Part shown: positions 8,494 through 14,712 of the stretch, piece by piece
Numbering within the stretch: position 1 is the stretch's first letter
How the letters are laid out: each line of letters opens with the position of its first letter
NCBI RefSeq assembly: GCF_000023465.1
Contig: NC_014041.1
Span: 889,001-953,000, forward strand
Direction: 5' to 3'
Origin: Zunongwangia profunda SM-A87
Lineage (GTDB): Bacteria; Bacteroidota; Bacteroidia; Flavobacteriales; Flavobacteriaceae
Length of the DNA: 64,000 nt
Translations under genes and position numbers: made by a program
The notes under the pieces: generated by a model
Database searches by the model: none
Seen by the model: the letters and a program-made list of their open reading frames with translations, nothing else
What the model was told of the DNA's origin: nothing

Positions 8494-8913
8494 TTTATTT
8501 AGCTTTTTAGCCTACAGTTTTTAGCTTTCGGCTTAATTTTTCTTATTTATATAAAAGTTTACAGTTAACAGTGAACAGGTTTTGTAAGGGATTTCTCCGT
8601 TTCGCTACGCTTCAGTCGAAATGACAATATTTATAATTCAAAATTCAGCATTCCAAATCCATAATAATTCATCCTGTTTCCTGGTTCTTGTCTCTTGCTT
8701 CTCAATTTAAATTTACAAATCATCACATCAACAAATTTTCTATTCTCTATGTTCTGTCAGCGGATGGGTGTATATTCTTCCTAAGGGATTTCTCCGTTTC
8801 GTTACACTTCAGTCGAAATGACAATATTTATAATTCAAAATCCATAATAATTCATCCTGTTTCCTGGTTTTTGTCTCTTGCTTCTCAATTTAAATTTACA
8901 AATCACCACATTA
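8494..8913. other. Repeat-filled gap between trpF and trpB
   Basis: No gene is supported here. The gap holds two tandem copies of a roughly 155-base repeat (8586-8741 and 8783-8941) and AT-rich sequence. An open frame at 8688-9032 (+) is an artefact of the repeats. Confidence 0.7.
8586..8741. repeat. Dispersed/tandem repeat, copy 1
   Basis: Starts AAGGGATTTCTCCGTTTCGC, continues through CTTCAGTCGAAATGACAAT, a TCATCCTGTTTCCTGGTT block and CACATCAACAAATTTTCT (8724-8741). Copy 2 begins 197 bases later; copy 3 is at 9772. Motifs of the type TCATTTCGA...GGAGAAAT are familiar to me from many Bacteroidota intergenic regions; function is unknown. Confidence 0.75.
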
Positions 8914-8941
8914 TCACATCATCACATCAACAAATTGTCTT
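8783..8941. repeat. Dispersed/tandem repeat, copy 2, running into trpF
   Basis: Same blocks as copy 1 with a few substitutions (GTTACACTTC for GCTACGCTTC) and a deletion near 8840. Its right end, CACATCAACAAATTG, forms the last codons and stop of trpF read on the minus strand. Confidence 0.75.
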
Positions 8942-9561: not shown

Positions 9562-9934
9562 GGTTTTAGTTTTTAGCCCAGCCTTTAGCTGTCAGCTAAT
9601 ATTATTTATAAGATTAAAAATTCTAATTCTATTTTACTTCTCGATTTTATTTTTTTATTCTATTTAAAAATCACTCGAAGTGGCATTTAGCTGAAAGCTA
9701 AAAGCTGACAGTTTTTTTTTGAATCACCTCGTCTATTCTCTATTTTCTAAGTGAAACGTCTATATTCTTATTAAGAGATTTCTCCGTTTCGCTACGCTTC
9801 GGTCGAAATGACAATATTTATAATTCAAAATCTATAATAATTCATCCTGATTCTTGAATCTTAAATCTTGTCTCTAGATAAACTTTTTCAAATTACTACA
9901 TCTTCAAATCGTAGAATTTTCTCACTACTCAAAT
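9562..9934. other. Gap between trpC and trpF with inverted AGCT-rich blocks
   Basis: No gene is supported. Left part has TTTAGCTGTCAGCTAA (about 9584-9599), right part TTAGCTGAAAGCTAAAAGC and GACAG near 9688-9711, giving loose inverted repeats. A third copy of the dispersed repeat follows at 9772. Confidence 0.55.
9772..9875. repeat. Dispersed repeat, copy 3
   Basis: TTAAGAGATTTCTCCGTTTC followed by GCTACGCTTCGGTCGAAATG, the AATATTTATAATTCAAAAT block and TAATAATTCATCCTG, matching copies 1 and 2 in order. It is shorter and diverges after about 9860. Confidence 0.7.
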
Positions 9935-12499: not shown

Positions 12500-13897
12500 T
12501 TATTCTATATTTTCAGCGATTTCTAATGCTTTGGTTAATGCTCCAAGTTTATTGTATACTTCCTGAAGCTCGTTTTCATCTTTAGATTCTGAGACCACCC
12601 CGGCACCGGCCTGATAATGTAATTGATGGTTTTTACTAACAAAGGATCTGATAATGATGGCATGGTTAAAGTTGCCGTGAAAATCCATAAATCCAATCGC
12701 ACCACCGTAGGCATCACGGTTTACATTTTCACATTCTTCAATAAGCTTCATGGCGCTATGTTTTGGTGCGCCGCTTAATGTACCTGCCGGAAATGTATCG
12801 GCTACCACCTGCATGGTTGGCGTATTAGGATTTTTGGTTCCGGTTACTTTGCTCACTAAATGAATAACATGAGAGAAAAATTGGATTTCTCGATAAGTTT
12901 CGACTTTTACATTGCTTCCGTTTCGACTTAGGTCATTACGAGCAAGATCAACCAGCATGACATGTTCAGCATTTTCTTTCTCATCGGCACTAAGTTGTTT
13001 GGCAATTTCGGCATCTTTTTCGTCGTTTCCGGTACGTTTAAATGTACCGGCGATAGGATGAATTTCGGCCTTGCCTTCATCGATGATCAATTGAGCTTCT
13101 GGCGAACTTCCAAAAATCTTAAAGTTGCCATAGTCAAAATAGAAAAGGTAAGGAGAAGGGTTGATACTGCGTAAAGCACGGTACACATTAAATTCGTCTC
13201 CTTTAAATTTTTGAGAGAAACGTCTGGAAAGTACAATCTGAAAGACATCACCACGATGACAATGTTTTTTACCGAATTTCACCTGTTCTATAAATTCTTT
13301 GTCGGTAAGGTTACTTTGGGTCTCGCCTTCGCGATGAAAATCGTAAGTGGCAAAATTCTTAACGCTTATCAGCTGTTCGATTTCTTCAATTTTATTATCA
13401 TCACTATAGGAGTGATTAAAAATAAATGCCTGATTATTAAAATGGTTAATGGCGATGATGTTTTGGTATACCGCATAGTACATATCTGGTAATTCCAGGT
13501 CGCCTTTTTTCTTGGTGATGTTTATGTCTTCAAAATAGCGTACACCATCGTAAGAAATATAGCCAAAGAGCCCGTTATTGATAAATTTAAAGTCAGATTC
13601 CTCGGTATCGAACAATTTTCCAAAATCCTGAATTTTTTCGGGAAGGTTAATCTCTGAACTGATTTTGGTTGTTTTTGAAGTTCCGTCTGGATATTCCTCT
13701 AAAATTTCCTCATTCTGTACTCTTATAGAGGCAACTGGATTGCAACAAATGTAGGAGAAGCTATTTTTATTGGCGTGGTAGTCGCTACTTTCTAATAGTA
13801 GGCTATTTGGATACTTGTCCCTTACCTTTAAGTAAACGCTTACAGGAGTAATGGTATCTGCAAGGAGTTTTTTGTAATTGGTCTTTAATGTGTACAT
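12500..13897 (-). CDS. trpE: Anthranilate synthase component I
   Basis: 465 residues. Converts chorismate plus ammonia to anthranilate. The N-terminal region carries SLLLESSDY, matching the LLES motif that binds tryptophan for feedback inhibition in other TrpE proteins. The chorismate-binding domain has DVFQIVLSRRFSQ, GSSPEAQLII, HPIAGTFKRTGNDEKD, EHVMLVDLARNDLSR, TFPAGTLSGAPKHSAM and YGGAIGFMDFHGN, all typical. First structural gene of the operon, directly after the leader peptide and attenuator at 13918-14036, so it is expected to be controlled by charged tRNA-Trp as well as by end-product inhibition. Confidence 0.97.
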   Translation of the reverse strand: MYTLKTNYKKLLADTITPVSVYLKVRDKYPNSLLLESSDYHANKNSFSYICCNPVASIRVQNEEILEEYPDGTSKTTKISSEINLPEKIQDFGKLFDTEESDFKFINNGLFGYISYDGVRYFEDINITKKKGDLELPDMYYAVYQNIIAINHFNNQAFIFNHSYSDDNKIEEIEQLISVKNFATYDFHREGETQSNLTDKEFIEQVKFGKKHCHRGDVFQIVLSRRFSQKFKGDEFNVYRALRSINPSPYLFYFDYGNFKIFGSSPEAQLIIDEGKAEIHPIAGTFKRTGNDEKDAEIAKQLSADEKENAEHVMLVDLARNDLSRNGSNVKVETYREIQFFSHVIHLVSKVTGTKNPNTPTMQVVADTFPAGTLSGAPKHSAMKLIEECENVNRDAYGGAIGFMDFHGNFNHAIIIRSFVSKNHQLHYQAGAGVVSESKDENELQEVYNKLGALTKALEIAENIE

Positions 13898-13917
13898 AAT
13901 TTAAAGTATCTTGAAAT

Positions 13918-13949
13918 AAAAAAAGGCTTGTCGTGAGACAAGCCTTTTT
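13918..13949 (-). terminator. trp attenuator terminator
   Basis: On the minus strand AAAAAGGCTTGTC (13949-13937) pairs with GACAAGCCTTTTT (13932-13920), loop TCAC, then a T run; a 13-bp stem. It lies 24 bases after the leader-peptide stop and 20 bases before trpE. CTCACGA across its loop (plus 13931-13937) is complementary to TCGTGAG in the last leader codons (13978-13984), giving a rival antiterminator helix. Confidence 0.9.
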
Positions 13950-13973
13950 CTTATATTTTTATATAATGGCAAT

Positions 13974-14036
13974 TTAGCTCACGAAGTTTGTACGTAAGTT
14001 AGACCACCACCAAGTATTTGCAATTCTGTTTTTCAT
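13974..14036 (-). CDS. trpL: trp operon leader peptide (three adjacent Trp codons)
   Basis: A 20-residue ORF, MKNRIANTWWWSNLRTNFVS. Three consecutive TGG codons in so short a peptide directly before trpE and an intrinsic terminator are the hallmark of ribosome-mediated attenuation. An in-frame ATG six codons upstream (14054) precedes the -7 box and cannot be in the expected transcript. The ATG at 14036 is only six bases after the -7 box TATATTTG, so the message is probably leaderless or nearly so. A Rfam motif I remember as Bacteroid-trp describes such trp leaders in Bacteroidota; this locus is probably a member. Confidence 0.88.
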   Translation of the reverse strand: MKNRIANTWWWSNLRTNFVS

Positions 14037-14041
14037 TGCCT

Positions 14042-14072
14042 CAAATATAGCCATCAATTTTTAAATCACAAA
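14042..14072 (-). promoter_or_regulatory. trp operon promoter, full Bacteroidota consensus
   Basis: On the minus strand TTTG (14072-14069), exactly 19 bases, then TATATTTG (14049-14042): the complete TTTG-N19-TAnnTTTG consensus. Predicted transcript start is at or next to the leader ATG (14036). Confidence 0.85.
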
Positions 14073-14081
14073 CAAATAATC

Positions 14082-14121
14082 AAAAAATAAATCCCGTAAT
14101 CTTCAGGGAAGATTACGGGAT
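14082..14121 (-). terminator. Rho-independent terminator after yceI
   Basis: A 14-bp perfect stem, ATCCCGTAATCTTC (14091-14104) with GAAGATTACGGGAT (14108-14121), loop of three, followed on the minus strand by TTATTTTTTG. It ends the marR-nitroreductase-yceI unit and insulates the trp promoter. Confidence 0.85.
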
Positions 14122-14142
14122 TGAAATACAATGGTTGGAATT

Positions 14143-14712
14143 TTAGAATTTTAAATCCACAGCGATTTTAAATTCGTCATAAATAGTTTTATCTCCCAGA
14201 TTATCAAAGAAACTTCCAGAGCCGTAACGTACATTGTATTTCGTACGATCGATAATAAGATTTGCATTGGCAGATTTCCCATTATAAACCATATCAAAAG
14301 TTACGGGATTGGTTATTCCTTTAATTGTAAGATCACCTACGATACCATAAGTATTACCAGATTTTTTGGATGCTGTGGTAATGATAAGTTTAGCTTCAGG
14401 ATGATTGGCAACACCAAAAAAATCGTCTGATTTTAAGTGACCTTCCAATTTTCCTTTGCTTTCGCCCTCAAGATCGGTAGATTGAAGAGAAGTCATATCG
14501 ATCACAAATTCTCCTCCTAAGATTTTCTCATCTTCTACATCTAAGTATCCGGATTTCAAATCGATGGTCCCTTCGTGACTGCCAGTTACCTTTTCGCCTT
14601 TCCAGGTAATCTTACTTTCTTTTACATCAATTTTTTTAGCCATACTGGTAAAAGCAAGTGAAGCAATTACAACAACTGAAGCTAAAGCTCCTTTAATGAT
14701 ATTCTTTTTCAT
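14143..14712 (-). CDS. YceI family periplasmic lipid-binding-like protein
   Basis: 189 residues with a Sec signal peptide (hydrophobic residues 9-24, cut near SMA-K). The mature part is a YceI lipocalin-like barrel: SKITWKGEKVTGSHEG, the F-V-D-MTSLQSTDLEG block, LKSDDFFGVANHPEAKLII, GDLTIKGITNPVTFDM and FKIAVDLKF. Relatives bind isoprenoid-type lipids; some are induced by alkali or oxidative stress. It follows the nitroreductase by 20 bases and is probably in the same MarR-controlled unit. Confidence 0.92.
   Translation of the reverse strand: MKKNIIKGALASVVVIASLAFTSMAKKIDVKESKITWKGEKVTGSHEGTIDLKSGYLDVEDEKILGGEFVIDMTSLQSTDLEGESKGKLEGHLKSDDFFGVANHPEAKLIITTASKKSGNTYGIVGDLTIKGITNPVTFDMVYNGKSANANLIIDRTKYNVRYGSGSFFDNLGDKTIYDEFKIAVDLKF

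Follow-up and report, generated by a model that had tools for sequence, protein, structure and literature searches.

The element analysed here lies on the minus strand of Zunongwangia profunda SM-A87, directly ahead of the tryptophan operon trpEGDCFBA, in a stretch of 64,000 nt (contig NC_014041.1, positions 889,001 to 953,000) that is referred to below as the window and whose own numbering is used throughout. The operon runs from 13897 to 6342 and begins with trpE (12500..13897, minus strand), whose best NCBIfam match is anthranilate synthase component I, at a score below that model's curated cut-off. Each of trpE, G, D, C, F, B and A has a correctly named NCBIfam match, above the curated cut-off for trpG, trpD, trpC, trpB and trpA and below it for trpE and trpF, and the nearest named TrpE relatives are those of Zunongwangia species (96–97%). 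Upstream of the trp promoter is a YceI-family gene (14143–14712, minus strand), and a terminator-like inverted repeat (14090..14122, minus strand, read from the sequence by eye) lies between the two. Inside the operon, the trpB–trpF and trpF–trpC gaps are long (roughly 370–420 nt) and contain diverged copies of a repeat of about 150 nt (63–80% identity, window positions 8571–8920 and 9758–9910), which share a stretch like TTGTCATTTCGACYGAAGCGTAGCGAAACGGAGAAATC.

The leader region is composed of a promoter, a short open reading frame and an intrinsic terminator. The first-pass annotation had placed a full-consensus promoter, a 20-codon ORF with three TGG codons and a 13-bp terminator ahead of trpE, and all three were found at those places on the minus strand. 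The promoter is of the Bacteroidota sigma-A type (14042..14072), with a −33 TTTG at 14072–14069, a gap of 19 nt and the −7 box TATATTTG at 14049–14042; a search limited to TAnnTTTG found no second such box on the minus strand between 13880 and 14150. The leader peptide ORF, trpL (13974..14036, minus strand), extends from an ATG at 14036 to a TAA at 13974 and encodes MKNRIANTWWWSNLRTNFVS, with three adjacent TGG codons at 14012–14004 (WWW, codons 9–11) and no alternative in-frame ATG, GTG or TTG start between the ATG at 14036 and the Trp codons. The ATG had been described as six bases from the −7 box, which holds if the count is taken to the A of the ATG as the sixth base; five bases lie between. 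The terminator (13918..13949, minus strand; AAAAAGGCTTGTC/TCAC/GACAAGCCTTTTT) consists of a stem at 13949–13920 with 13 perfect pairs, or 15 if the flanking pairs of the computed fold are counted, a 4-nt loop and a U-tract that runs to 13918, and the end of the U-tract is 20 nt from the start of trpE.

Three further segments of the minus strand carry the alternative pairings. Segment 1 (CTTACG, 13993..13998) forms the top of a predicted protector hairpin, in which it pairs with CGTGAG of segment 2 in the minimum free energy (MFE) fold of the untranslated leader. Segment 2 (TCGTGAGCTAAATTGCC, 13968..13984) overlaps the last trpL codons and the stop codon. Segment 3 (GGCTTGTCTCACGA, 13931..13944) comprises terminator 5′ arm, the loop and the first two bases of the 3′ arm, and is the antiterminator partner of segment 2. 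The seven-base complementarity noted earlier between the end of the leader ORF and the terminator loop is exact (TCGTGAG, 13984–13978, with CTCACGA, 13937–13931), and a 7-bp match was equalled in 1 of 200 dinucleotide shuffles of the leader stretch of the window (p 0.005). For the leader RNA as a whole the fold energy is −35.4 kcal/mol; its shuffles average −17.5 (z −6.2), and none of the 200 was as stable.

A scan of the whole window against Rfam at gathering scores returned a single match, to Bacteroid-trp (RF01692; 13937..14056, minus strand), at 60.1 bits against a gathering score of 49 and an E-value of 7.8e-05, covering positions 1–131 of the 131 of the model. This bears out both the trp attenuator and the family name that the first-pass annotation had given: with a score above gathering and a position upstream of a trp biosynthesis gene in a member of the Bacteroidota, the window element is confirmed as a member of a known family. 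A permissive scan of 13500–14500 gave 41 matches, and all except Bacteroid-trp were under their own gathering scores. The element shares with RF01692 the Trp-rich leader, the position and a terminator 5′ arm at the end of the model. Unlike the window element, the model ends at GGCUUGUC, so that the antiterminator core lies outside it and its terminator is incomplete; as we read its structure line, the apical pairs also differ from the CTTACG:CGTGAG of the window. The motif itself has been published (Weinberg et al. 2010, Table 1, PMC2864571), a passage on Flavobacterium psychrophilum discusses Bacteroid-trp upstream of trp by analogy with Escherichia coli (PMC6414381), and part of another report mentions clues for leader-peptide attenuation ahead of amino acid operons (PMC9723704). 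Among the open-licence matches listed, no paper was found to describe either the antiterminator of Bacteroid-trp or its start spacing.

Matches to the family at an E-value of 0.001 were found in 31 of 60 relatives, 275 of 397 genomes of the same taxonomic family, 27 of 395 of the class and 42 of 395 of the phylum, and at 0.01 in 53 of 78, 15 of 119 and 57 of 121 genomes of three further groups; the samples overlap, so these tallies are not additive. From these searches 173 loci were fetched, of which 159 were parsed and 151 are unique (an earlier parser took 105 of 108 loci of a smaller set). The 14 unparsed loci were lost to the terminator or position filter, and all of them show a leader with a run of Trp codons. 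The leader ORFs of the parsed relatives contain two or three Trp codons. One locus, L030, has a second TGGTGGTGG short ORF (ATGTTAAATAATAAAATAAATAATTGGTGGTGG) right after its first terminator, a possible tandem trp leader. In all 151 unique relatives a trp gene lies within 1,400 nt of the terminator, and the first such gene is trpE in 86, trpB in 38 and trpD in 27, which means that the leader has kept its place in front of the operon through changes in the first gene.

The antiterminator predicted in the window is larger than the complementarity that was first noticed, which forms its top. It pairs TCGTGAG-c-TAA-att-GCC with GGC-TTG-t-CTCACGA and spans both the 5′ arm and the loop of the terminator. 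Covariation was assessed on an alignment (A1) of 61 non-redundant loci (<86% similarity) drawn from 124; the order of genome G419, which accounts for 27 of the 151 loci, was left out, and the A1 results for the 2:3 core, the terminator and the 1:2 core do not extend to it. In the 8-pair 2:3 core, 86.7% of cells are paired, as against 24–50% when the partners are slid by 1–3 columns. All eight pairs show changes on both sides. Double-change cells number 39, compared with 12.8 in shuffles, and on each of five measures the observed value lies above all 500 shuffles; because relatedness alone can place sequences beyond every shuffle, more weight rests on the slid controls and on the count of double changes. 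The terminator stem is paired in 94.2% of cells, with 13 covarying pairs. RNAalifold on A1 recovered the terminator alone, since the leader pairs are exclusive with it. That the Rfam model lacks the 2:3 pairing is explained by its end point, which falls before the terminator loop. Several orders retain the run of Trp codons, the terminator loop and segment 2, with compensatory changes, which argues against a reading with a constitutive terminator, a leader ORF that arose by chance or is a vestige, and control of trp by other means. The position of the leader before three different first trp genes argues in the same direction, and this reading is extremely unlikely, although the terminator alone is stable (−19.6 kcal/mol in the finished-state fold described below).

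At single loci, the helix between the leader and the terminator loop was distinguished from leader shuffles at p 0.05 in 99 of 151 relatives and at 0.01 in 39 of 151. By group, the 0.05 level was reached by 66 of 79 loci in f1, 21 of 26 in f26, 11 of 19 in the others and 1 of 27 in the order of G419, which makes 98 of 124 outside that order. A contiguous helix with the 5′ arm of the terminator shows the opposite distribution at p 0.05 (0 of 124 outside the order of G419, 13 of 27 inside). In this order the leader pairs with the terminator 5′ arm rather than the loop, for example through GGCAGCC with GGGTTGCC, and the split by order implies that the family uses two placements of segment 3. The leaders of this order (L069, L070, L102, L105 and L148–L173) precede trpD, and 26 of the 27 parsed have no TAnnTTTG box.

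Pairing between segment 2 and the terminator loop could also be read as a pseudoknot that stabilizes or times the terminator. The 7-bp core takes up the 4-nt loop and only three bases of the stem, and on paper a partial lower stem could coexist with it. In the fold of the window, however, the pairing continues into the terminator 5′ arm (TAA:TTG and GCC:GGC) and excludes the stem, and with segment 2 placed at the stop codon a role in promoting termination would be expected to give a physiologically inverse response. We regard the pseudoknot as very unlikely. Read as an antiterminator, the 2:3 pairing joins the other attenuator features of this locus: consecutive Trp codons, a terminator before the first structural gene and, by folding and covariation, an antiterminator and a terminator that are mutually exclusive.

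Folding of the window leader in successive states, with an assumed ribosome footprint that reaches 14 nt, counted from the start of the A-site codon, gives a distinct structure for each. Without translation, the nascent leader adopts a long hairpin (−15.8 kcal/mol) that extends between the Trp codons and ATTGCCATTA and is topped by CTTACG:CGTGAG. With the footprint of a ribosome stalled at Trp codon 9, 10 or 11 withheld, nascent RNA that ends with the loop folds into the antiterminator (−11.8 kcal/mol). If the RNA under a ribosome at the stop codon is withheld instead, −0.7 kcal/mol remains, and the terminator forms once its 3′ arm emerges; the finished-state fold consists of the terminator alone (−19.6 kcal/mol). 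The first-pass annotation had proposed a simple choice between antiterminator and terminator. This picture was incomplete on two counts, as the antiterminator enters the terminator 5′ arm and a third structure, the protector hairpin, takes up segment 2 in the untranslated-leader fold. With the complete terminator present, the terminator is in the MFE structure of every state folded, at −23.0 to −24.9 kcal/mol even with the RNA of the stalled ribosome withheld. The choice must therefore occur during transcription, and the model needs co-transcriptional kinetics. The E. coli trp attenuator likewise depends on such kinetics.

Among the relatives, the stalled-state fold has at least seven 2:3 pairs in 150 of 151 loci, a threshold that by itself discriminates little because leaders with the upstream part shuffled average 7.7–9.0 pairs; the group means are 12.5–14.0. 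The mean energy z of the stalled state is −2.5 in the group of the window and −0.68 in f26, where there is little gain over a shuffled upstream part, and a z of −1.5 was reached by 34 of the 61 non-redundant loci and missed by 27. The first 2:3 paired base lies 17–22 nt past the last Trp codon in 120 of 150 relatives; in 138 of the 150 it falls within −8 to +11 of the stop codon, as a model in which the terminating ribosome masks segment 2 needs. For the protector hairpin, the 1:2 core is paired in 72.6% of A1 cells against 30–50% when slid. Four of its pairs show changes on both sides, but 171 of 500 shuffles have at least as many, and on three of the five measures this core scores no higher than some of its slid versions, so that its support from covariation is mixed. 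The MFE structure of the untranslated leader contains at least seven 2:3 pairs in 70 of 151 relatives (45 of 79 in the f1 group; 9 of 27, 8 of 26 and 8 of 19 in the other groups). By folding, a 1:2 protector hairpin is likely in the window leader.

Taken together, these features most probably represent a ribosome-mediated transcription attenuator of the trp operon, of the Bacteroid-trp family and similar in layout to the E. coli trp attenuator, in which the RNA begins 0–1 base before the leader AUG. RNA polymerase would begin at the AUG or one base earlier, and the 20-codon leader would be translated from this near-5′-terminal AUG. When charged tRNA-Trp is scarce, the ribosome would stall at the Trp codons and cover or break segment 1. 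Segment 2, thus freed, would pair with segment 3 on its emergence, the terminator could not nucleate and trpE would be transcribed. When tryptophan is plentiful, the ribosome would reach the stop codon and mask segment 2, which would allow the terminator to form. In the case of a leader without a ribosome, the long hairpin that begins at the Trp codons and takes in segments 1 and 2 is also predicted to permit the terminator.

The start site in this model is predicted from the promoter spacing. In F. psychrophilum a sigma-A box at −12 to −5 is described in part of one report (PMC9723704), and in Flavobacterium johnsoniae distances of 4 or 5 nt from box to start site marked probable promoters in a section of another (PMC6847099). 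Given these Flavobacterium distances and the 5 nt between box and ATG, the predicted +1 is the A before the AUG (14037) or the A of the AUG itself (14036). The trpL message is thus apparently near-leaderless, with a predicted 5′ UTR of 0–1 nt. In the window at large, an ATG lies 4–8 nt downstream of 3 of the 78 TAnnTTTG boxes on the two strands of the 64 kb. Among 174 unique Bacteroid-trp leaders that have both a box and an ATG, the distance from box to ATG is bimodal: 4–8 nt in 67 (exactly 5 nt in 43), 9–12 nt in 13 and at least 14 nt in 94. This set leans towards the near kin of the window, as 80 source loci were chosen by TrpE similarity, and its proportions are not frequencies. After removal of the loci chosen in this way, the f1 group and two small families (n=78) comprise 26 near, 4 middle and 48 long spacings, and in f26 none of 26 leaders has a spacing below 14 nt. 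For the named genera (71 of 80 named loci parsed), a spacing of exactly 5 nt was found in 12 of 13 loci of Christiangramia, 5 of 5 of Allomuricauda, 7 of 7 of Flagellimonas, 2 of 2 of Gillisia and 3 of 4 of Zunongwangia. On a TrpE tree, built by a quick method with long branches flagged and one long-branch join warning, at least seven changes between near (≤8 nt) and long spacing are required, a count that gives no direction of gain or loss.

It is also conceivable that the same attenuator operates from a main promoter further upstream, with the AUG inside a 5′ UTR of normal length. Short leaders are uncommon among relatives: leaderless messages make up 5.5% in F. psychrophilum according to the part of the report cited above (PMC9723704), about 3.7% of the 5′ UTRs of Bacteroides thetaiotaomicron are shorter than 10 nt (PMC7366714), 87% of predicted transcripts of F. 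johnsoniae have leaders longer than 10 nt in the section cited (PMC6847099), and the more distant box (≥14 nt) occurs in many of the Bacteroid-trp leaders counted here (94 of 174). At the trp locus of the window, on the other hand, positions 13880–14150 of the minus strand contain a single TAnnTTTG box, which sits 5 nt ahead of the ATG and is preceded at 19 nt by a consensus −33 TTTG, and the terminator-like repeat follows the YceI-family gene upstream. The 5-nt spacing also recurs in most or all of the parsed leaders of Zunongwangia, Christiangramia, Allomuricauda, Flagellimonas and Gillisia. We consider the upstream promoter unlikely and retain initiation at or one base before the AUG as the preferred reading.

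A trp leader without a 5′ UTR is not new as such, as the leaderless trp leader of Sinorhizobium meliloti is already on record (PMC7298713). The window resembles S. meliloti trpL/rnTrpL, as described in the portion of that paper drawn on here, in having a trp leader ORF at the 5′ end of the transcript (in the window by prediction), and differs from it in that the S. meliloti peptide has 14 residues and belongs to a different phylum (PMC7298713). The E. coli trp attenuator has a leader peptide with Trp codons, a protector 1:2, an antiterminator 2:3, a terminator 3:4 and a stop codon placed for the masking of segment 2. The window matches it in its regulatory Trp codons, its 1:2/2:3/3:4 layout (with a likely protector, predicted by folding) and its stop placement, and differs in that its three Trp codons are adjacent, its AUG is predicted at about +1/+2 and its segment 3 includes the terminator loop.

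The his operon of the same genome has a leader of the same design (L174, G000:C1 about 2,558,500, before hisG). It has 19 codons with five His codons (MRTIQLHHHHHIYYCAQAR), and a box TAGATTTG, read by eye, lies 8 nt before its ATG, giving a predicted 5′ UTR of 4 nt. A segment 2 near the stop codon pairs with the terminator 5′ arm and loop, at −22.1 kcal/mol in the stalled state against −2.8 in the finished state. This leader differs from that of trp in its His codons, its predicted 4-nt 5′ UTR and its sequence. An Ile-rich leader, MNLGKQYIISSIIKVIFIWKTWP, is also found some 250 nt before an ilvD frame (L175, C1 about 3,014,100); its box TAGGTTTG, again read by eye, is 22 nt from the ATG, and pairing joins the end of this leader to the 5′ arm and loop of the terminator (−18.4 stalled, −0.5 finished). 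The his and ilvD results come from this one genome.

To our knowledge, Bacteroidota do not use Shine-Dalgarno pairing in initiation. Tentatively, and at rather less than even confidence, we suggest that in some Flavobacteriaceae promoter spacing ties the trp attenuator (and, in this genome, nearly the his attenuator as well) to a 5′-terminal AUG, and that a ribosome can load once the 5′ end has emerged from the polymerase. Synchronization, for which E. coli relies on pausing and a ribosome-binding site, would then be provided by leaderless initiation, and the bimodal spacing would reflect two modes of initiation that have interchanged in evolution.

For a named RNA family that the papers found present as a motif or liken to E. 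coli, the analysis offers an explicit and testable mechanism backed by compensatory changes. The family also lends itself to a natural test of early ribosome–polymerase coupling for attenuation in a phylum without Shine-Dalgarno initiation, as this switch occurs in lineages related to one another whose predicted 5′ UTR is 0–1 nt in some and about 13 nt in others.
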